Shown: positions 26,603 through 36,773 of the stretch, piece by piece
Numbering within the stretch: the stretch's first letter is position 1
How the letters are laid out: every line of letters begins with the position of its first letter
From: Pseudoflavitalea sp. G-6-1-2
Lineage (GTDB): Bacteria; Bacteroidota; Bacteroidia; Chitinophagales; Chitinophagaceae
Direction of reading: 5' to 3'
Length of the DNA: 64,000 bases
Assembly (NCBI RefSeq): GCF_012927185.1
Contig: NZ_JABBGB010000002.1
Coordinates: 1,612,001-1,676,000, forward strand
Program-made: the position numbers and the translations under genes
The notes under the pieces: generated by a model
Told to the model about the DNA's origin: nothing
Databases searched by the model: none
What the model saw: the letters and a program-made list of their open reading frames with translations, nothing else

Positions 26603-27016
26603 TTACAGGTACTTTTCAGCAAAGGCTTTTGTGTATTCTTTGATCAGGTTACGGGCATGCAGAAATTGTTGTTTGATCTCTTCCTCCGTACCGGTGGCTT
26701 TTGCCGGATCAGGAAAATTCTCATGGAACAGCTGTGCTTTGGAGGGGAAGAAAGGACATCTTTCTTTTGCATGGTCGCACACTGTAATCACATAATCAAA
26801 ATCTATTCCGGCATATTCTGTAATGTTGTTGGATGTATGGCCTGAGATATCGATACCATCTTCGGCCATGATGGAAATGGCTTTGGGATTTACACCATGT
26901 GTTTCTACACCTGCACTATAGATTTCGGCCTTACTGCCGCCAAAATAACGGAGGTATCCTTCTGCAATCTGACTGCGGCAACTGTTGCCTGTACAAAGCA
27001 CCAATACTTTTTTCAT
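26603..27016 (-). CDS. arsC: Arsenate reductase, low-molecular-weight phosphatase type
   Basis: 137 residues. The phosphatase loop is C8-T-G-N-S-C13-R14. The redox pair that relays electrons after attack on arsenate is C80 and C87 in VCDHAKERCPFFP. An ENFPDPAKATGTEEE segment carries the DP acid motif. These are the marks of the thioredoxin-linked class (Staphylococcus pI258 ArsC type). It reduces As(V) to As(III) in the cytosol. Its ATG overlaps the acr3 stop by one base, so translation is coupled, and it supplies the arsenite that Acr3 exports. Confidence 0.95.
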   Translation of the reverse strand: MKKVLVLCTGNSCRSQIAEGYLRYFGGSKAEIYSAGVETHGVNPKAISIMAEDGIDISGHTSNNITEYAGIDFDYVITVCDHAKERCPFFPSKAQLFHENFPDPAKATGTEEEIKQQFLHARNLIKEYTKAFAEKYL

Positions 27017-28113
27017 TATGAGGGTTGTTTTAAAACTTCAGCATTATTTTCAGAACCGTACCATTTTTTACGAAGCCAGAAAGCCACATTTACAAGGGCA
27101 ATCAATGCAGGTACTTCTACCAGCGGCCCAATAACACCGGCAAATGCCTGGCCACTGTTGATGCCAAAAACACCGATCGCAACTGCTATCGCCAATTCAA
27201 AATTGTTACCGGCAGCAGTGAATGCAATGGAGGCATTCTTTGAATAATCAGCGCCAAGGAATTTTCCTGTGAGAAAACTTACCAGGAACATGATCACAAA
27301 ATATATCACCAGAGGAATGGCTATTCGCACTACATCCATCGGTATGCTCACAATCAGTTGTCCTTTGAGGCTGAACATAACAATGATGGTAAACAATAAC
27401 GCGATTAACGTAACCGGAGAAATAACCGGGATGAACCGCTGCTGATACCATTCTTCTCCTTTCAGTTTTATCAGTATTATTCTTGTTAGCACACCTGCCG
27501 TAAAAGGGATACCGAGATAAATGGCAACACTTTCTGCAATCTGGCCGATGGTGATATTCACTGCAATTCCTTTTAGTCCGAATAAAGGAGGCAGCACCGT
27601 GATGAAGATGTAAGCATACAGGCTAAAAAAGATCACCTGAAATATGCTGTTCAGCGCAACAAGTCCTGCTGCATATTCCCGGTTGCCTTCTGCCAGTTCG
27701 TTCCAGACAATTACCATGGCAATACAGCGGGCAAGACCGATCAGAATAAGGCCAGTCATATATTCCGGAAGATCATGCAGAAAGAGAATGGCCAGAACAA
27801 ACATCAGCACAGGCCCCACAACCCAGTTGAGGAACAGCGATGCACCCAGTATTTTTGTGTTCCTGAATACTTCTCCTAATTTTTCATATCTCACTTTGGC
27901 CAGTGGTGGGTACATCATCAATATCAATCCAATGGCCAACGGAATATTGGTAGTGCCTGATGAATACGCATTGATCCATGCCGAAGACTCCGGAATAAAA
28001 TAGCCTACGCTCACTCCAATGATCATGGCGAGGAAGATCCATAAGGTTAGATATCGGTCTAAGAAACCGAGACGTTTTCTTTCAGTGGCAGGATTGCAGT
28101 TGTTTGCGCTCAT
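27016..28113 (-). CDS. acr3: Acr3-family arsenite efflux permease
   Basis: 365 residues with about ten membrane helices, normal for ACR3. Family segments: [20 protein letters not shown], the helix-4 region [19 protein letters not shown] with the conserved functional Cys, and near the end [20 protein letters not shown] with PLVEVPALI. It exports As(III), possibly also Sb(III), through the inner membrane using the proton gradient. It is the third gene of the operon, 62 bases after arsM and overlapping arsC. Confidence 0.96.
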
Positions 28114-28175
28114 ACATATTTTTTAACTAAGACTGCGATCATGAAATGACCGCAGCCGAAACTGATTTTAAAGGA

Positions 28176-29021
28176 TTAACTGCAACAGCCAGGTGCACAG
28201 CAAGCGCCTGCATCTTTTGGTTTCTCTGCATAAACAGTAATGCTGTAAATGCCTGTGTTCCCTTTTCTGAATGCAGCGATCTCTTCTGCTGACAAATACC
28301 CGCTGAGAATATCATCAGGGATCACAATTGCTTTTTCTTTCTGAATGGTAATATTGGTGAACCCGTTCTTTTCGATCAGTTCGAGATATACCTGCTTTTG
28401 AATGGCGCCCGATACGCAACCGGCATACATTTCAGCAGCTTGTTGAATTGCGGGAGGCAATGTGCCTTCCAGCACAATGTCGGAGATGCTGAAATGTGCG
28501 CCGGGTTTCAGCACACGAAAAATGTCTTTGATCACTCCATCTTTGTTGGGTACGAGATTGAGTACGCAATTGCTCACAATCACATCTGCGGTGTTTGCGG
28601 ATACAGGCATATTTTCGATGTCGCCCTGTCTGAACTCTACATTGTGAAATCCGAGCTTCTCTGCATTCTGTCTGGCTTTCTCAATCATGGCAGGAGTAAA
28701 GTCGATGCCGATAACCTTTCCTGTTTCTCCGGTTTCGGATCTGGCGATGAAGGCATCGTTGCCGGCTCCTGATCCCAGATCGATCACCACATCTCCTTTT
28801 CTGATCTTCGCAAATTGAGTGGGCAGCCCACAACCCAATCCAAGATCCGCATCGGGATAGTAGCCTTCGAGCTGAGTGTAATCGTCCGTCATTATATTGG
28901 CTGTTTCGATGGAGCAGCAACCGGAACCGCAGCAGGATGCTGCGTTGTCTGTTTTATCCTGTAAGGCAATCTCACTGTATTTCTGCCTTACCATTTCTTT
29001 TATTTGCTCAGTTGTTTGCAT
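28176..29021 (-). CDS. arsM: Arsenite S-adenosylmethionine methyltransferase
   Basis: 281 residues. Rossmann methyltransferase with SAM loop VIDLGSGAGNDAF. Arsenic-binding Cys candidates are C64 in LGLGCGLPT and the Cys in YAGCVSGAIQ, as in ArsM proteins. Additional Cys clusters occur at both ends: C30-C31 and C35-C36 near the N-terminus (CCGSGCC) and CCAPGCC at the very C-terminus. It methylates As(III) to mono-, di- and trimethyl species. It is the second gene of the operon, preceded by its own copy of the ArsR-type palindrome at 29042-29059. A C-terminal Cys cluster is common in bacterial ArsM and may help capture arsenite. Confidence 0.93.
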   Translation of the reverse strand: MQTTEQIKEMVRQKYSEIALQDKTDNAASCCGSGCCSIETANIMTDDYTQLEGYYPDADLGLGCGLPTQFAKIRKGDVVIDLGSGAGNDAFIARSETGETGKVIGIDFTPAMIEKARQNAEKLGFHNVEFRQGDIENMPVSANTADVIVSNCVLNLVPNKDGVIKDIFRVLKPGAHFSISDIVLEGTLPPAIQQAAEMYAGCVSGAIQKQVYLELIEKNGFTNITIQKEKAIVIPDDILSGYLSAEEIAAFRKGNTGIYSITVYAEKPKDAGACCAPGCCS

Positions 29022-29041
29022 AACAATTCTTATTATTGGTT

Positions 29042-29059
29042 TATTGCAATATTGCGATT
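29042..29059 (-). promoter_or_regulatory. Second ArsR-type operator, in front of arsM
   Basis: TATTGCAATATTGCGATT matches the operator at 29414-29431 (TATCGCAATATTACGATA) at 15 of 18 positions by my count and is likewise nearly palindromic. It lies in the 59-base gap between arsR and arsM, 20 bases before the arsM ATG. No clear promoter match goes with it. Confidence 0.6.
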
Positions 29060-29080
29060 AATCAGGGCAAAAAAAATGCC

Positions 29081-29410
29081 TTAGCAGCATCCGTCTTTGT
29101 TTACGTAAGCAACAAAGAATGAATCGAAGGCAGCACGGTACTGATTCCATGTTTTGGGATCGATGCAATAGCAAACGCTGGTTCCTTCAATGGTTCCGGT
29201 GATCAGTCCTGCGTTTTTAAGTTCTTTCAGGTGTTGACTGATAGTTGCCTGCGCAAGACCGAGTTCTTCCACCAGATCACCACAGATACATGCCTGCGCC
29301 TTCACCAGATACTGAATGATGGCGATGCGTGCAGGATGCGCCAATGCTTTCATCATCTGCGCCAGCTTATTCTGCTTTTCCGTGAATATTTCTGATTTTG
29401 TAAGACCCAT
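29081..29410 (-). CDS. arsR: ArsR-family arsenic-responsive repressor
   Basis: 109 residues, one winged helix (ALAHPARIAIIQYLVK then GLAQATISQHLKELKNAG recognition helix). Arsenic-sensing Cys candidates: C41-x-C43 in ACICGDL, at the place of the CVC motif of classical ArsR, plus C80-x-C82 in SVCYC and the terminal C108-C109. It is the first gene of the operon. A palindrome overlaps its promoter, so it should repress itself and the downstream genes until As(III) binds. Which Cys set senses arsenic cannot be settled from sequence. Confidence 0.94.
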   Translation of the reverse strand: MGLTKSEIFTEKQNKLAQMMKALAHPARIAIIQYLVKAQACICGDLVEELGLAQATISQHLKELKNAGLITGTIEGTSVCYCIDPKTWNQYRAAFDSFFVAYVNKDGCC

Positions 29411-29468: not shown

Positions 29469-30566
29469 TTACTTCTTCGTCTGTTTTTGTTTCGGTGCCA
29501 GCTCCCTGATCCATTGCGTGATCAATGCAACACCTTCTTTGTGAATCACTGAGCGCGCAAGTTCCGGCATGGCAATATTGGGCGCTACGCTGTTCATCCG
29601 GTAAACAAAAATGGAGTGCTCAGGATCACCGGGGATTATATCATAGTTAAGTCCACCTGCACCACCACCTGCAGAAACAGGCTCTTTCATTATACCGACA
29701 TGGAACCTGTCTTTTTGTTCATACTCCAGAAATAATCCGGTATTGGAGGCATCACCTCCTGCACTATGGCAATGCGCACAATTGACATCGAGGTAGGCGC
29801 GTGCCCGTTGATCGAGGGTGAACCTTTTGGCATCTTTCCAATCAGGCAACACATCCACACTATCGGAATTGGGAAATCCAGCTAACGCACCGGCTGCTGC
29901 CCATTCAGCCAACTGATTGTTTTGCTGCCCATGTACAACATAATTAAGATTGCGGGCCTTGGGACCAATGGGTTCCAGCTGATTGTTATTGTTATGGCAC
30001 CGCTTGCAATCGTTCACATTTGGTACCTGATAACTCGTATGCACTTCATTCCCCGCTTCATCCACCAATGCAATTGGGAGCACTGCACCGGTAATATGTT
30101 TCTTTGCTGCAGTCTGTTCTTTATTCCACAAATAATCCATCACTTTCCAGCGGTGATCCAACGGATCTTTTACCAGCAGGCGTGTCTCTATCATTACCTT
30201 CTCCCCCGCTTTATTCCTGTAAGCGAAATTCTTGATGATGATAGTGGAATCCGGAAAATCAAGTATTCCTTTGGCAACATACCTGATCTGTTTACCGGCA
30301 GGAAGAACAATGAACCTGTCTTTGACGGTATAATCACTGAACAAAGGCGTAACAATTTCATAGTGTCTTACAGCAGCTATCGGATTCAATGATTTCAGTT
30401 CGCCGGAAAAGAAACCATAGTCGGCCAATTGTTCCAGAAAAACAAACCCCTGTTCCGCAGTTGCTGCTGTTTTATTATTGGTGTTGTTGCCACAACCCTG
30501 TTGAAGGGTTGCAGCAACCATTACTATCAGCATCAAAACGCCGCTCACCCAATACGTTTTTTTCAT
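29469..30566 (-). CDS. Di-haem c-type cytochrome lipoprotein (SO_2930/HNE_0200-like family)
   Basis: 365 residues from the ATG at 30566 (the frame opens three codons earlier with GTG). Lipoprotein signal with Cys in LQQGCGNN. Two haem sites: C187-KR-C190-H and C263-AH-C266-H, the second followed by SAGGDASNTGLFLEY, and a C-terminal IAMPELARSVIHKEGVALIT that probably gives a haem ligand Met. Overall layout (YEIVTPLFSDYTVKDRF, then KDPLDHRWKVMDYLWN) matches the family I know as SO_2930 or HNE_0200-like, which is found next to a parallel beta-helix protein, as here. It probably carries electrons in the periplasm or at the surface for an unknown oxidation. Last gene of the TetR operon. Confidence 0.85.
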   Translation of the reverse strand: MKKTYWVSGVLMLIVMVAATLQQGCGNNTNNKTAATAEQGFVFLEQLADYGFFSGELKSLNPIAAVRHYEIVTPLFSDYTVKDRFIVLPAGKQIRYVAKGILDFPDSTIIIKNFAYRNKAGEKVMIETRLLVKDPLDHRWKVMDYLWNKEQTAAKKHITGAVLPIALVDEAGNEVHTSYQVPNVNDCKRCHNNNNQLEPIGPKARNLNYVVHGQQNNQLAEWAAAGALAGFPNSDSVDVLPDWKDAKRFTLDQRARAYLDVNCAHCHSAGGDASNTGLFLEYEQKDRFHVGIMKEPVSAGGGAGGLNYDIIPGDPEHSIFVYRMNSVAPNIAMPELARSVIHKEGVALITQWIRELAPKQKQTKK

Positions 30567-30592
30567 TGTAGTCACTGGTTAAGTATAGAACA

Positions 30593-31867
30593 TTACTTAC
30601 AGACAAAGGGAGTAATATTTGTATCAGGCTTCCACTTTGCCGGATTGGACATTGTAAGGAAGTTGGCATTTACAAATGCGTTGGGCTCCTTTTGTCCTAT
30701 GCACAGGCTATCGGGATTGACTGCACTGCCATTGCTGAGCACATTGGTACTAACGCCATCGTAAAAAATGAATGGCACTCTTTTAATGGCAGGATCGATC
30801 TTGCGGAGTGTCTCTTCAACAGCAACGAACATGGGTCCCATACGATGTTCGTGCAAAGGTTGCGGGAATGCATCAGCCATCTGGAAAGTATTGCCATGAA
30901 TGCTGATATGCGCAGGAACAGGAAAATACTGATCGTTGATTCTGTGCACTGCACTATCATCCACAGTAAAGCCCGATGCAATGATGATACCCGACGTATT
31001 GTTATTGATGATCCTGTTATTGAAGATCTCCACATTCGAAGTGGCCAGAATGATAACACCACTGCCGGGAGGCGCATTGCCTACACCCCACGCTGTTCCG
31101 AAACTGCCGGCTTTGGCAAAGTTCCTGAAATTGTTATCGTGGATATGATTGTTCCAGGCTTTGATATGGCCACCTTTTTGTGAGAGACCAGGTAAATCAA
31201 AAACCAGAAAACCTGCCGTGTTGTTGTAGAATTCGTTATCGTATACTTCTGCATGAGTAGTGTTTTCCACTTCACATCCAGCTACATTTTTTGCTCCTTT
31301 GTTATTGCGGATAACGGCAGAATCCGATTGACCTACATAGATGCCTGCATCGGAAGAACCTTCCACATAGCAGTTTTCTACCAGCACATTTTTGCAGAGC
31401 ACGGGATAAATGGCATAACCGCCGCTGGTAGAATCAGCCGTTTTCCAAACAGCATTCAGACCGGCCACTACTACATTACGGCTTTTATTGATCTTGATGA
31501 GATCACCTTTGGAGTCGCGGATGGTCATATCGCCGATGGTGAAACCAATCAGTGAAGTAACCCGTATGCCCTCTCCTCCTGTTTTTTGCGAAGAGAAATC
31601 GAGTATGGTCTTTTCCGTTCCTTCTCCCCTCACCCGGATATGATTCACATTGGCCAGGCTCAGGTTATCGAACTGATACTTCCCTTCTTTCAACAATATG
31701 TCGGTACTGTCTTTAATGGTGAGGAATGCTTCAGTTATTTTGGCTTCTTCACCAGGACCAAAGCTAAGCGTGTGTTTGTAAGATGATTTTGTGTCAGGCG
31801 CTGTATTGCATGCAGCCATCAACAGCAGCAAACAGCATAGACCAAGAATAGGTTTCAGGTTGTTCAT
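30593..31867 (-). CDS. Parallel beta-helix lipoprotein, partner of the di-haem cytochrome
   Basis: 424 residues with lipoprotein signal LGLCCLLLLMAACNTA. The middle is a right-handed parallel beta-helix with short rungs rich in Asn, Val and Ile: NHIRVRGEGTEKTILDF, GFTIGDMTIRDSKGDLI, NVLVENCYVEGSSDAGIYVG, VEIFNNRIINNNTSGIIIAS. Such helices bind or cleave polysaccharides, but I see no certain lyase triad. This family and the cytochrome at 29469 occur together in other bacteria, which argues for a joint machine. It is 26 bases upstream of the cytochrome gene and 18 bases after the TonB receptor. Confidence 0.85.
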   Translation of the reverse strand: MNNLKPILGLCCLLLLMAACNTAPDTKSSYKHTLSFGPGEEAKITEAFLTIKDSTDILLKEGKYQFDNLSLANVNHIRVRGEGTEKTILDFSSQKTGGEGIRVTSLIGFTIGDMTIRDSKGDLIKINKSRNVVVAGLNAVWKTADSTSGGYAIYPVLCKNVLVENCYVEGSSDAGIYVGQSDSAVIRNNKGAKNVAGCEVENTTHAEVYDNEFYNNTAGFLVFDLPGLSQKGGHIKAWNNHIHDNNFRNFAKAGSFGTAWGVGNAPPGSGVIILATSNVEIFNNRIINNNTSGIIIASGFTVDDSAVHRINDQYFPVPAHISIHGNTFQMADAFPQPLHEHRMGPMFVAVEETLRKIDPAIKRVPFIFYDGVSTNVLSNGSAVNPDSLCIGQKEPNAFVNANFLTMSNPAKWKPDTNITPFVCK

Positions 31868-31885
31868 TATGGTTGATATTCGTTA

Positions 31886-34648
31886 TTAAAAAATATTGTA
31901 CGCATATGTGATGTAATAAGTAGCCCCGATCATCGGGTTGGCGGTACCTGTAGAGTAATATTTGTTGGTGATATTGGTTCCTCCCAAACGGATACCGGAA
32001 TGCGCTTTCAGCAGCTTGTAGCTGATCTGTGCATCCATCACAGCAGAGGCAGGAACGTTGCCCTGTCCGCCACCGCCATTCACTACATAAAAATAGCCGG
32101 GCTTATACCGAAGCGTTGTATTGAAACTCCATTCCTTTTTACGGCCAAAGCCCATATTGCCCAAATCGAAATTGATATGATAATCGGGTGCATTGAAATT
32201 GTTGACCTGCTTGTTGTTCTTATTATCGATATGATCAGAATAATAGTTGGCCTTGAATCTGAAGCTTCCCAGAAAGTCGATGCTGATGCTGGCCGCATAG
32301 CCATAGGTTTTCACTCCTTCCGCGCCATTGAAAGCTATATTGTAAATCACATGCCTGCTTTGGTCTTTGAACGCGGCAACATCATTGGTACCGGGCGAAT
32401 TGGCTACGTTGGCATAACCGATGAAGTTTTTCCATGTGGCGTAATATCCCAGCACATCTATGAGAATGAATTTATTGATCACGGTTGCATATCCCAATTC
32501 AAATGCATTTACACTCTGAGGTTTGATGCCGTCGTAGGCAAACTTCTCCAGCACCGCAGGATCGTTGCTACGCTGATACTTGCGCACACTTTCCAAAGTA
32601 TAAGGTGCATACTGATCGAAATGATATACGCCATTCAGCAGGTAATTGGAGCCACCGGAAGAATAACTGTTATAACCGTTGAGCGTGTTTTGCAATGCCT
32701 GGATATTGCTCGGAAAACTATAGGCATTCTGATAAGAGAAACGGATGTAGTTGCTCCTGTTCACTTCAAATACAGAGCTCAGCCTGGAAGTTACTTTCGC
32801 ATCGGAGAACAGGGAGTTTTTGTCCCACCGGAAAGATGCACTCAACTGAAGTTTATCGTGGATCAGTTTCTTCGATGCCTGGAGATAAACACTCCATTCG
32901 TTTACATTGATGGGTTTATCATTATCCGGAAATAAAGTGTTCTTACTGTTCAGGCGGTACAGTCGGTAATTCACTCCCGCGATGAGGTTCATGAATTTCA
33001 CCAGCTCTGAAAAATTATACTGCAGTTCGGCATTGTACAATTTTGAGCGGTCGAGAAATAAAGTGCCGCCTTCCGAAATAGGTCTGTTGGCAATGCTGTC
33101 TTTTAATCTGTTGAAGGTACTGGTACCGGGCATTACTCTCCCCTCATCCGCAAAAGAGCGGGCAGCAAGATTCGCGGCCTGCAGATCAGCACCTCCGGCC
33201 ATTGCAGTGAGCAGGCCCATGGTGTATTGAGGATACCATCCATCTCCTGTACTTTCGTTGTAGCTGGGCTTCCAGGCCTCATTGAGATATTGTGCAGTAG
33301 GCCCTGCAAGCAGCGTGCGGCCTGAGTTTTCGGTAGTGGCATATCCACGTACAAACCAGTGATTGGCTTTCAGCTCCAGCCGGTACTGACCAACTTTGAA
33401 TCCACGGATCTGATAACGGGTGTCGTTCGTGTACACAATATTTCCTGTGCCGAATGTACCGGAACCGATCAGCTCCATTGTACTTGAAAGCTTGTAACGC
33501 AGCTCTGCATTGCCTTTGAATAAATAAGCGTTGTTATTGAGGTAATCATATTCTGCATACCCGGTACGGGCAACATAGTAAGAGGGGTTTGCCGCCAAAA
33601 AAGGTTCTATCAATGGAGCCAGTGAAGGATCCGCTTGCAGTGCTCCCTGCATAAAAGGAACAATGTCTACCGATGTGGCTCCTCCGTAATAATTGATGCC
33701 GTTGTAATTGGGATCTGTATACTTTGATCCGGGCCCGCTTTTATTGGATGAGTCGGTGGCCACCCAATCGTTGCCCTTTGTATATTGAAAATTCATTTTG
33801 TAGGCAAAGCGCTCACTGAGTTTCTGTGCCCAGCGCAAACTCCAGTCGTAATAAGGAGAGGCCTTCACAGGATCTCCATACTTCTTACCATTGATATGGT
33901 TTATGCCTTGTGTGATCAGAAAACTAAGTCCCTGGTCCTTGAAAGGATTTTTGCTGCTGGTGACCATGGTACCATTCAAGCCGCGTGATCCGTACAATGC
34001 GGAAGATGCGCCGGAAAGCAATTCGATATTGTCAACGTCCAGTTGTGTGGGACTGATAACAGATCCCAGCGGGAAGTTCAGTCCGGGTGCCTGATTATCC
34101 ATTCCATCCACGATCTGCGTAAAATTCGTATTACCGCTTGTATTGAAGCCGCGGGTTGTAATGCTGGTGAAACCGAGGCTGGATACGGTTACATCCACAC
34201 CACGCAATCCCTGCAATGCATCGATGTAATTGAGTTGGGGCGAGAGTTGAATTTCTTTCCGGCTAAGCTGCTCGATGGTAACCGGAGCAGTGAGTTTACG
34301 TTGCACCATCCGGCTTGCATTCACCACCACTTCTTCTCCGAGTGTGGAGGCTGCATTCAAGGCAACGGTGAGATTACCCGGTTGCTGCAACGTCATTTCT
34401 TTTGATTCGAACCCGATGGAAGAGAAAACAATGGTGAGTGGGAAATGCTGATTCACTGTAAAACGGAAACGGCCACGATCGTCCGTGTATGTACCTCCGG
34501 TGGCGCCTTTGATAGATACAGATACCGCCGGTAATGGCTGTTGTGTTTCGGCATTGGTAACTACGCCGGTGATGGTCTGGCGTTGTGCATGTACGGACCC
34601 GGCAGCGCATACCAATGGGATCAATAATGCAAGCAATCGTTTTTTCAT
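31886..34648 (-). CDS. TonB-dependent outer-membrane receptor with CarboxypepD-like domain
   Basis: 920 residues: signal peptide to VHAQR; carboxypeptidase-regulatory-like domain (about 22-105, QTITGVVTNAETQQPLPAVS); possible TonB box EEVVVNASR; plug with GVDVTVSSLGFTSITTRGFN and ELLSGASSALYGSRGLNG; then a beta-barrel ending AYNIF with terminal Phe. There is no STN domain and no FecR neighbour, so it is not sigma-coupled; control is presumably by the TetR protein two genes upstream. It imports an unknown ligand. The gene lies 47 bases after the aldehyde dehydrogenase gene. Confidence 0.92.
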   Translation of the reverse strand: MKKRLLALLIPLVCAAGSVHAQRQTITGVVTNAETQQPLPAVSVSIKGATGGTYTDDRGRFRFTVNQHFPLTIVFSSIGFESKEMTLQQPGNLTVALNAASTLGEEVVVNASRMVQRKLTAPVTIEQLSRKEIQLSPQLNYIDALQGLRGVDVTVSSLGFTSITTRGFNTSGNTNFTQIVDGMDNQAPGLNFPLGSVISPTQLDVDNIELLSGASSALYGSRGLNGTMVTSSKNPFKDQGLSFLITQGINHINGKKYGDPVKASPYYDWSLRWAQKLSERFAYKMNFQYTKGNDWVATDSSNKSGPGSKYTDPNYNGINYYGGATSVDIVPFMQGALQADPSLAPLIEPFLAANPSYYVARTGYAEYDYLNNNAYLFKGNAELRYKLSSTMELIGSGTFGTGNIVYTNDTRYQIRGFKVGQYRLELKANHWFVRGYATTENSGRTLLAGPTAQYLNEAWKPSYNESTGDGWYPQYTMGLLTAMAGGADLQAANLAARSFADEGRVMPGTSTFNRLKDSIANRPISEGGTLFLDRSKLYNAELQYNFSELVKFMNLIAGVNYRLYRLNSKNTLFPDNDKPINVNEWSVYLQASKKLIHDKLQLSASFRWDKNSLFSDAKVTSRLSSVFEVNRSNYIRFSYQNAYSFPSNIQALQNTLNGYNSYSSGGSNYLLNGVYHFDQYAPYTLESVRKYQRSNDPAVLEKFAYDGIKPQSVNAFELGYATVINKFILIDVLGYYATWKNFIGYANVANSPGTNDVAAFKDQSRHVIYNIAFNGAEGVKTYGYAASISIDFLGSFRFKANYYSDHIDNKNNKQVNNFNAPDYHINFDLGNMGFGRKKEWSFNTTLRYKPGYFYVVNGGGGQGNVPASAVMDAQISYKLLKAHSGIRLGGTNITNKYYSTGTANPMIGATYYITYAYNIF

Positions 34649-34695
34649 ACGCGTTATTTAGCAGTTAGGGAGAAAGGACCTATCGTTGACTGATC

Positions 34696-36087
34696 TTAGA
34701 ACAATCGCTTTAACCACTTCAGCTTATCCTTGTAGGGCGGATATTTCATCGCCGGATCGAACCACAGGGGTGTTTTCATTACAGCACGTGCATGCGTGAA
34801 CACCCTGAAACCATGTATGCCCCGGTAAGCGCCGATACCACTTTGACCAATTCCGCCAAAAGGCAGGTTTGAATTGGCCAGATGCATAATGGTGTTATTG
34901 ATGCATCCATTGCCAAATGCTTTGCTTTGCAGCCATTGCTCTTCTGTCTGTTTATTGGTGGTGAACAGATAGAAGGCCAGTGGATTGGCATGCTGATCAA
35001 CAATACCCATTGCCTCTTCTCTTGTACGGAAAGAAATGATGGGTAATAAAGGGCCGAAGATCTCTTCCTGCATCACCACATCATCCGGTGAAACGTTTCT
35101 GATGATTGTTGGTGCAATGAACAGATGGGCCGGATCATACCCTCCACCCGTGACCACTTCGCCACTGCTATTCTTCAATAATGATACAAGTGCATTGAAC
35201 CGCTGAAGATTGATGATGCGGCCATAATCAGCACTATCCTGCACAGTTGTTCCAAAAAAATTACGGATACAATCTTTCAGCGCATCGATAAAGGGTTCCA
35301 GAATATCTTCCTGCACCAGCAGATAATCAGGTGCCACACAGGTTTGTCCTGCATTGATGAACTTTCCGAATACGATACGCCGCGCACTGACAGCAATGGC
35401 TGCGTCTTTTTCAACAATAGCAGGACTCTTCCCTCCCAGCTCCAGTGTGACAGGCACTAATTTTTTTGCGGCGAGTTCATAAATGGATTGCCCAACATTG
35501 CCGCTTCCGGTATAGAAAACATGATCAAAGCGAAAGGATTCCATCATTGCAGGCACCACTATTCTTCCTTCTCCCTGCACTACACGCACATGATCTTCAC
35601 GGAAGATTTGTCTGATCATTTTCTCTATCACTGCTGCAGTTGCCGGAGCATGTTCGGAAGGTTTTATGATGATGCAATTGCCGCCGGCTATCGCCCCAAC
35701 CACAGGTACCAAACCCAGCAGCAGCGGATAATTCCAGGCGCCAATGATCAGAACCACTCCTTTAGGATGCGGATAGATCTTGCTGGAGGAGGGGAAATTG
35801 AGCAGGTTGGTCTTTACCCGTTCGGGCTGCATCCATGCAGCCAATTTTTTGATGGCCAGTCTGATCTCGGACAGCAGCAGGCTGAATTCTGTAAGAAACG
35901 ATTCTGCTTTGCTTTTTCTCAGATCACTGTACAATGCGCTGTACAATGCTTCTTCATGGGCAATCAGCCCATCACGGAACGCCACCAGCTGTTGCATTCT
36001 GAAACGGTATCCAATGCTACCACCGCTTTCGAAAAAGCGACGCATATTGTTCAGCCCATGGGCTGCCAGTGGGGTTACCGTTTCCAT
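34696..36087 (-). CDS. Aldehyde dehydrogenase, ALDH3-like (fatty or aromatic aldehyde type)
   Basis: 463 residues, the short form typical of class 3 ALDH, with no N- or C-terminal membrane anchor. Key residues: N119 in GAWNYP, E216 in TLELGGKSP, catalytic C250 in NAGQTCVAPDY, and NSNLPFGGIGQSGIGAYRG late in the chain. The ALDH3 tail is KLKWLKRLF. It oxidises an aldehyde to the acid with NAD(P)+ in the cytosol; long-chain or coniferyl-type aldehydes are the usual substrates of the class. Its start is 5 bases after the TetR stop, so the two are co-translated, and the outer-membrane receptor follows: a route from uptake to oxidation is inferred. Confidence 0.93.
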   Translation of the reverse strand: METVTPLAAHGLNNMRRFFESGGSIGYRFRMQQLVAFRDGLIAHEEALYSALYSDLRKSKAESFLTEFSLLLSEIRLAIKKLAAWMQPERVKTNLLNFPSSSKIYPHPKGVVLIIGAWNYPLLLGLVPVVGAIAGGNCIIIKPSEHAPATAAVIEKMIRQIFREDHVRVVQGEGRIVVPAMMESFRFDHVFYTGSGNVGQSIYELAAKKLVPVTLELGGKSPAIVEKDAAIAVSARRIVFGKFINAGQTCVAPDYLLVQEDILEPFIDALKDCIRNFFGTTVQDSADYGRIINLQRFNALVSLLKNSSGEVVTGGGYDPAHLFIAPTIIRNVSPDDVVMQEEIFGPLLPIISFRTREEAMGIVDQHANPLAFYLFTTNKQTEEQWLQSKAFGNGCINNTIMHLANSNLPFGGIGQSGIGAYRGIHGFRVFTHARAVMKTPLWFDPAMKYPPYKDKLKWLKRLF

Positions 36088-36092
36088 CTGTT

Positions 36093-36692
36093 TTATTTAG
36101 GCTTATGAAATATTATGGACACCAGGTGTTTGATATTCTGCAGGCTGTTTGCATATTCCACCGAGGTGCTTCCTTTCAAAATGGATTTTTGTTCTTCATA
36201 GTGTTTCAAAGCATCGCTGATATCGATCAGCAGGGATGCGATCTTGCCTGGATTGCCTTTTGCCACTACGCCTTCCTGCATGGCCTCTTTCAGGATAACT
36301 GTGAGAAACTCCTGTTCCTGTTTTCTGAAATCTTCGTACAGTTCAAAAAAGCGGGGCAGCATTTTAGTGAGCATGCTGGGAGAGATTTTACTTACATTCA
36401 GCACATTCACATAATATTTGAAGCGGGAATCGAGATAGAACCAGATCTGCGCTTCCAATCCTTTCTTCTTTACTGTTTTCTGTTGCAGTGCTTCGATATA
36501 TGTTCTGCCTTCTGCCAGTGCCGCTTCTACAAAAAGATCTTCTTTGTTTTTATAGTAGTAATAGAGTGATGCTTTGTTCAGCCCGATCAGTTTTGCAATA
36601 TCATCCAGTGTTGTTTTTTCCAGACCGTATTTTGTAAAACACTGCAGGGCCGCTTCACGGATCTTTTGTTTTAGTGCTTCCTTTTTTGTCAT
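36093..36692 (-). CDS. TetR-family repressor
   Basis: 199 residues from the ATG at 36692 (MTKKEALKQKIREAALQCF); a TTG four codons earlier is less likely. The N-terminal DNA-binding domain has the classic pattern TLDDIAKLIGLNKASLYYYY then KNKEDLF. The C-terminal ligand-binding part is all helical with no recognised specificity. First gene of the operon TetR - ALDH - TonB receptor - beta-helix - cytochrome. A pair of palindromic sites lies just upstream (36731-36773), so autorepression relieved by a small lipophilic or aldehyde-like ligand is likely. Confidence 0.93.
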   Translation of the reverse strand: MTKKEALKQKIREAALQCFTKYGLEKTTLDDIAKLIGLNKASLYYYYKNKEDLFVEAALAEGRTYIEALQQKTVKKKGLEAQIWFYLDSRFKYYVNVLNVSKISPSMLTKMLPRFFELYEDFRKQEQEFLTVILKEAMQEGVVAKGNPGKIASLLIDISDALKHYEEQKSILKGSTSVEYANSLQNIKHLVSIIFHKPK

Positions 36693-36730
36693 AATTGAAT
36701 TCAATGGCTCTTAAAAGTTAGAAATCTTTT

Positions 36731-36773
36731 TTTGATTTTTCAAACTTTTAAATAAAAAAGTTGAAAAATCAAA
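36731..36773 (-). promoter_or_regulatory. Double TetR-type operator
   Basis: TTTGATTTTTCAA (36731-36743) and TTGAAAAATCAAA (36761-36773) are perfect inverted copies 17 bases apart. Each copy is itself a TTGA-n4-TCAA palindrome, so this reads as two adjacent operators, about 40-80 bases upstream of the tetR start. Confidence 0.65.

Follow-up and report, generated by a model that had tools for sequence, protein, structure and literature searches.

A run of five genes on the minus strand of a 64,000-nucleotide stretch of the Pseudoflavitalea sp. G-6-1-2 genome (contig NZ_JABBGB010000002.1, positions 1,612,001 to 1,676,000; hereafter the window) encodes a TetR-type regulator, an aldehyde dehydrogenase (ALDH), a TonB-dependent receptor (TBDR), a parallel beta-helix protein (BHX) and a dihaem cytochrome of the SO2930 type (CYT). 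The fixed part of this arrangement among relatives is the TBDR-BHX-CYT trio, while ALDH and TetR are not fixed, and the N-terminal domain of CYT seems to be related to cytochrome P460 and to have retained the lysine that is bonded to the haem there. The core is read here as an outer-membrane redox module in which a P460-type haem domain comes with a built-in electron outlet, an explanation that, taken whole, stands at about even chances of being right.

The P460-like domain and the beta-helix partner

The N-terminal domain of CYT is predicted to have the P460 beta fold, and its hhalign comparison with P460 gave an E-value of 1.8e-6, confident over 33 columns, against 0.0027 or worse for the controls. 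The cut-off of Pfam PF16694 is not reached by the window CYT, and 4 of 39 relatives match this model weakly (best E 0.013); a search of PDB sequences with the CYT alignments returned nothing useful. The lysine at the position of Lys115 was present in all members of a conservation set of 159 distinct full-length domain sequences, kept from 255 raw matches after duplicates and matches under about 280 profile positions were dropped. The cytochromes P460 of N. europaea, Nitrosomonas sp. AL212 and M. capsulatus share with CYT the fold of the domain, a FPDGTIIVK-type motif with the cross-link lysine and a CXXCH motif at the C-terminal end of the domain. They differ in that CYT is dihaem, with a C-terminal cytochrome c domain attached (likely of the His/Met type, with an invariant Met336, judged by sequence), has a near-obligate beta-helix partner, and occurs in Bacteroidota, Pseudomonadota and others. 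CYT may also differ from them at the proton-relay position, where neither alignment shows a carboxylate: the place of the P460 distal carboxylate (Glu96/Asp102) would fall to Arg132 when counted without gaps from the VKD motif, and to Leu134 by hhalign, in a stretch aligned with low confidence, with the invariant Glu130 close to the candidate position. NsP460 is reported to lack the distal carboxylate as well, and cytochromes c'-beta to carry Phe or Met at the P460 lysine position (PMC11928373), where CYT has lysine. An equivalence of CYT Arg87 with Arg44 of NeP460 was considered and is not claimed. The literature searched, which mostly excluded subscription journals, gave no report that the SO2930 family contains a P460 domain. 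Partial SO2930-like proteins that match only the N-terminal domain and the first haem, without BHX, were seen in three further loci (L059, L060 and L063), and may represent a further family of the P460 type in Bacteroidota; an AraC-type gene lies upstream in L059 and L063, and an anthrone-oxygenase-like gene downstream in L059.

BHX and CYT form a near-obligate pair, sometimes within a single chain. The surveys that bear on this covered named genomes, of which the best 80 loci of a longer list were examined, as well as Pseudomonadota and 244 genomes of the family. Clade A, grouped with the window by identity, comprises 44 of the named loci (L090-L133, 50-64% identity; hosts Chitinophaga, Pedobacter, Sphingobacterium, Ferruginibacter, Flavihumibacter, Niabella and others), and the other 36 are at 48% identity or below; all clade-A counts given here (44, 38, 16, 22 and 11) refer to this listed set, and two of its members, L103 and L104, share a contig of a single strain. 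A profile search found BHX immediately before CYT in all 44 clade-A loci, either as a gene on that strand or as part of one chain. The pairing recurs in 33 of the 36 other listed loci (one exception lies at a contig end), in 38 of 40 loci of Pseudomonadota (40 of the 41 genomes with a match, G712 being left out) and in 24 of 31 family loci, while in the remaining seven the locus meets a contig end (two) or the CYT match is partial or of low score (five). In five proteins of Pseudomonadota BHX and CYT are joined in one chain; among the fusions L200-L202, a second CYT gene lies downstream in L200 and L201, and a DUF3083 gene precedes the fusion in L200, the one locus scanned for it.

Outside clade A a TBDR was mostly not detected beside the pair, and the other neighbours scanned are of varied kinds. 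A same-strand TBDR adjoins the pair in L148, L204, L213, L214, L215 and L224, and one on the opposite strand in L222. The same-strand TBDR that adjoins the pair on a Novosphingobium plasmid (L002, NZ_CP039697.1) is split by an IS5 transposase; this trio lies near ALDH, AdhP, PQQ-dependent dehydrogenase and ars genes. The neighbours of class-B pairs were rejected as a functional guide, no common pathway being seen among the selected ones examined (amino acid permease, peptidase, phospholipase, tyrS, recG, ygiQ, dnaB and a radical SAM protein linked to DNA repair). One pair, L042, sits within a glycan-degradation cluster (GH43, GH88, GH95-like, 3-keto-disaccharide hydrolase).

The window pair resembles the SO_2929/SO_2930-type pair (TIGR03805/TIGR03806) in passing both curated cut-offs and in the order BHX-CYT, which we take to be that of the Shewanella genes. 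It differs in being joined to TBDR, TetR and ALDH, which most pairs examined outside clade A are not. The literature search found nothing joining the SO2930 or beta-helix family names with ALDH and TBDR, or with Pedobacter and TetR, and nothing on beta-helix with alkane or P460 with beta-helix.

The predicted model of BHX (pLDDT 93.1) finds its closest structures in mannuronan C5-epimerases, lyases, polygalacturonases and NosD; the predicted fold is that of carbohydrate-active beta-helix enzymes. Besides the mannuronan C5-epimerases AlgE4/AlgE6 and polysaccharide lyases, many right-handed beta-helices score high (NosD 27.8). The fold being common, no more can be read from it than the possible presence of a long groove. 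A PDB sequence search with BHX alone returned nothing useful, and the weak match of the BHX profile to the polysaccharide lyase RbmB (E 2.8e-4) fits any beta-helix. Invariant residues in a 52-row alignment include Asp122, Lys125, Tyr151, Tyr154, Asp173, Gln180, Glu201 and Asn202; Tyr and Lys residues appear by eye to be placed as in AlgE4, and retention of its active site is not claimed without a residue-level alignment. A strict lipobox was found in 20 of 25 clade-A BHX rows against 1 of 18 CYT rows, and the eight clade-A CYT rows looked at show a Cys behind a hydrophobic segment, position -2 being Gln or Glu.

Companions of the trio among relatives

TBDR is held by 38 of the 44 clade-A loci; among the six without it, L090 and L108 start at or near a contig end and L132 is fragmented. 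The regulator upstream of the 38 is TetR in 16 (divergent in L124) and a LytTR-type protein in 22, never both, the LytTR assignment being made by phmmer against the L097 protein and confirmed with PF04397 in L056, L097 and L107 only. In the Pedobacter loci L096-L098, L103 and L104 the LytTR regulator is immediately preceded by two genes for serine/threonine protein kinases (domains scanned in L097, the others judged by gene size). ALDH adjoins the trio in 11 of the 38 and is missing beside it in 27: it occupies the interval between TetR and TBDR in L092, L095 and L112, an order also seen in the additional loci L050 and L055, lies 3' of CYT in seven Sphingobacterium loci and is divergent in one Pedobacter. 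Gene calls in these surveys were made by longest-ORF (open reading frame) selection, which missed the BHX of L095 that the profile search found, and four loci were obtained from two sources (L108=L048, L112=L049, L091=L054 and L124=L052).

Within the 244 family genomes, the window's included, CYT exceeds its cut-off in 26 and a TBDR of the window kind (>1200 bits) occurs in 10, with BHX-CYT adjacent in 9 of these. The tenth, G189, has the nearest relatives of ALDH (64%) and of TBDR (80% over residues 196-920), the latter split by about 1.65 kb; BHX and CYT were not found in it.

The joining of BHX-CYT to an outer-membrane receptor, as put forward in a preliminary description made from the sequence of the window, is borne out in clade A. 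Its link of ALDH and TetR to the trio is recurrent and yet not fixed, because 27 of 38 trios are without ALDH and 22 of 38 have a LytTR-type protein in place of TetR; the separation of these two genes from the trio in relatives, named in that description as evidence that would speak against it, was therefore found by half.

The ALDH belongs to a common kind. Near relatives at E <= 1e-120 are present in 145 of 244 family genomes, and three such genes, the operon one counted, are in the window genome. Its best NCBIfam model is the MdlD benzaldehyde dehydrogenase NF045701 (382.5 bits, under the equivalog cut-off of 550), and its PDB relatives include the fatty aldehyde enzyme 4qgk and the benzaldehyde enzyme 5ucd. 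In a tree from which two duplicate rows were removed, and whose non-operon rows are best matches of the window ALDH, a long, fully supported branch (100/100) separates the window-type from the Sphingobacterium-type ALDHs. The window-type operon ALDHs form no single supported group in this tree, in which 13 of 29 inner branches are unresolved; a copy of the window, L062, carries a non-operon label there by mistake, and the change counts of the tree are for that reason not used. As the two subfamilies are distant, ALDH was recruited to the trio at least twice, and since they joined the same trio in different positions a shared pathway is favoured. The evidence as a whole supports a module under TetR or LytTR control with an optional aldehyde-oxidising step.

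TBDR scored 102.2 bits with the SusC/RagA model TIGR04056, under its cut-off of 368.25. The resemblance to SusC/SusD pairs lies in a TBDR with an N-terminal carboxypeptidase-like domain adjoining a lipoprotein gene; the difference is that this cut-off is not reached, that BHX is a beta-helix and that a Pfam scan found no SusD-like gene among the five operon genes. Sister TBDRs at 42-49% identity (18 loci, L281-L298) have a SAICAR-synthetase-like cluster as neighbour in 16 of these loci and a fasciclin-type cluster in 10 (one member per cluster was scanned). This neighbourhood is a different system, and the sister receptors were rejected as a guide to the ligand.

Layout of the locus and the palindrome upstream of tetR

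The coordinates of the five genes and of the features within them are collected in Table 1. In the order from tetR to CYT the genes are separated by 5, 47, 18 and 17 bases, and no terminator-like site was found in these gaps by a scan that overall gave 8 sites against 8.0 in shuffles. The tetR start is likely the ATG at 36692 rather than 36704, judged by homologues. Gene calls with Pfam and NCBIfam confirmed the five genes, their families, their strand and the range of gaps as they had been described beforehand, including the naming of the SO_2930-type cytochrome and its parallel beta-helix neighbour, and the double palindrome described at the operon start is likewise present and exceeds chance. 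The genome holds one TIGR03806 gene in total.

Table 1. Positions of genes, haem-related features and candidate regulatory sites in the window
Feature	Positions	Strand	Basis or remark
tetR, TetR-type regulator	36093-36704	-	PF00440 TetR_N, 54.7 bits, cut-off 24 (Pfam)
ALDH, class 3 aldehyde dehydrogenase	34696-36087	-	Pfam Aldedh
TBDR	31886-34648	-	Pfam Plug and N-terminal CarbopepD_reg_2
BHX, predicted lipoprotein	30593-31867	-	NCBIfam TIGR03805, 305.9 bits, curated cut-off 141.5
CYT	29469-30575	-	NCBIfam TIGR03806, 357.1 bits, curated cut-off 313.3
P460/c'-beta-like domain of CYT, residues 44-214, first haem motif inside	29934-30446	-	
CYT Lys115	30231-30233	-	Aligned with the haem-cross-linking lysine of cytochrome P460
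First CXXCH, CKRCH, CYT residues 190-194	29994-30008	-	
Second CXXCH, CAHCH, CYT residues 266-270	29766-29780	-	
Operator candidate TTTTTCAAACTTTT-N5-AAAAGTTTGAAAAA, 2 mismatches	36736-36768		Upstream of tetR; recurs upstream of TetR in related loci
Second half-site	36711-36724		Partner 36738-36751; inverted-repeat search

Two inverted-repeat pairs make up the palindrome, the first with arms at 36731-36749 and 36755-36773 (89% complementary) and the second with arms at 36711-36724 and 36738-36751 (93%). The second half-site may overlap the -7 box TAACTTTT of a putative promoter. With as many as 3 mismatches allowed, the long form of the palindrome has a single site in the 6.1-Mb genome. A short form, CAAAC-N13-GTTTG, with 2 mismatches at most and no more than 150 bases from TetR on its upstream side, is present in 18 of 22 TetR-type loci (the window counted; as relatives the loci are not independent). 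The corresponding figure is 1 of 22 for LytTR-type loci, and 100 shuffles gave a mean of 1.34 and a maximum of 4. Because of this recurrence the palindrome goes beyond chance, and it is likely the TetR operator.

The same-strand run continues past CYT with an ArsR-like gene 58 bases on, and ArsC-like, ACR3-like, ArsM-like and ArsR-like genes, named from their translations, occupy 26603-29410. The 58-base gap contains an imperfect palindrome, atatcgtaatattgcgata, which may be a candidate ArsR site, and the arsenic-type genes are probably under their own promoter.

Proposed mechanism and its alternatives

In the proposed mechanism TetR would bind the palindrome and be released by a ligand, which is probably either the substrate itself or an aldehyde derived from the substrate. 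TBDR would carry the substrate across the outer membrane and BHX would hold it, while the P460-type haem of CYT, with His194 as the proximal ligand and Lys115 probably bonded to the porphyrin, would oxidise it in a pocket putatively lined by the invariant Glu130, Arg132 and Arg87. Electrons would pass within CYT to the His/Met haem and then out to the respiratory chain, and in ALDH-bearing lineages the aldehyde product would enter the cytosol, where ALDH would oxidise it to the acid. The role of plain electron acceptor, earlier ascribed to the cytochrome, is doubtful, since half of CYT resembles a P460-type haem domain and is possibly the reaction centre. The general shape of the pathway outlined in the preliminary description survives, whereas its substrate guess and its fixed five-gene set fall.

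It may be asked whether BHX and CYT form an enzyme at all. They could be no more than a structural unit or an outlet for electron transfer, with a P460-fold domain that is redox-inert or binds NO like c'-beta and with the oxidation left to an enzyme outside the operon; this is a tentative alternative, held well below even chances. It draws on the c'-beta proteins, which are reported to have the same fold without hydroxylamine oxidation (PMC11928373), on the listing of SO_2930 as an outer-membrane or extracellular c-type cytochrome in the S. oneidensis electron-transfer network (PMC4837345), and on the L042 pair inside its cluster with a 3-keto-disaccharide hydrolase. Against it, all 159 sequences retain the cross-link lysine, whereas c'-beta are described with Phe or Met there, and the obligate beta-helix partner together with the fusions points to a dedicated substrate. 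Acquisition of iron or another metal, with TBDR importing a ferric chelate, CYT reducing or releasing the iron at the outer membrane, BHX as a binding lipoprotein and ALDH incidental, is quite unlikely. Here the receptors speak in its favour, as the TBDR of the Pseudomonadota trio L224 matches best the siderophore receptors of TIGR01783 (119.6 bits, under the cut-off of 223.5) and a sequence search of the PDB gave the window TBDR a single relative, the colicin I receptor (E 1.1e-4); yet control by TetR or LytTR and recurrent ALDH recruitment are, by general knowledge, atypical of iron uptake, and the pair mostly occurs without a detected TBDR.

The substrate class previously guessed, a lipophilic or aromatic compound captured and oxidised with an aldehyde as the end product, is very unlikely, for nothing found indicates the substrate class. 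The fatty aldehyde and benzaldehyde enzymes among the PDB relatives of ALDH would agree with it, as would a PF04116 fatty acid hydroxylase gene after CYT in L092 and L112; but no ALDH lies beside 27 of 38 trios, its near relatives are as widespread as noted above, and 42 of the 44 listed loci, some of them cut by contig ends, showed no such hydroxylase. As a general feature of the locus the hydroxylase was rejected, its two occurrences being in metagenome-assembled genomes of one Amazon data set.

The redox-module reading can be extended beyond the window. The SO2930 family could be a widespread self-sufficient cytochrome P460, with a lysine-bonded haem, a built-in His/Met cytochrome c and an obligate, substrate-selecting beta-helix subunit; heterotrophs would then have a large, so far overlooked class of haem oxidases, acting possibly on hydroxylamine, N-hydroxy or related small substrates and coupled to outer-membrane import in Chitinophagaceae and Sphingobacteriaceae. 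This extension is speculative and rather doubtful. The P460 superfamily would be widened by a dihaem relative that occurs in several phyla and retains the cross-link lysine, and the P460 reading would give the SO2930 family, whose function is so far unexplained, a testable active site.

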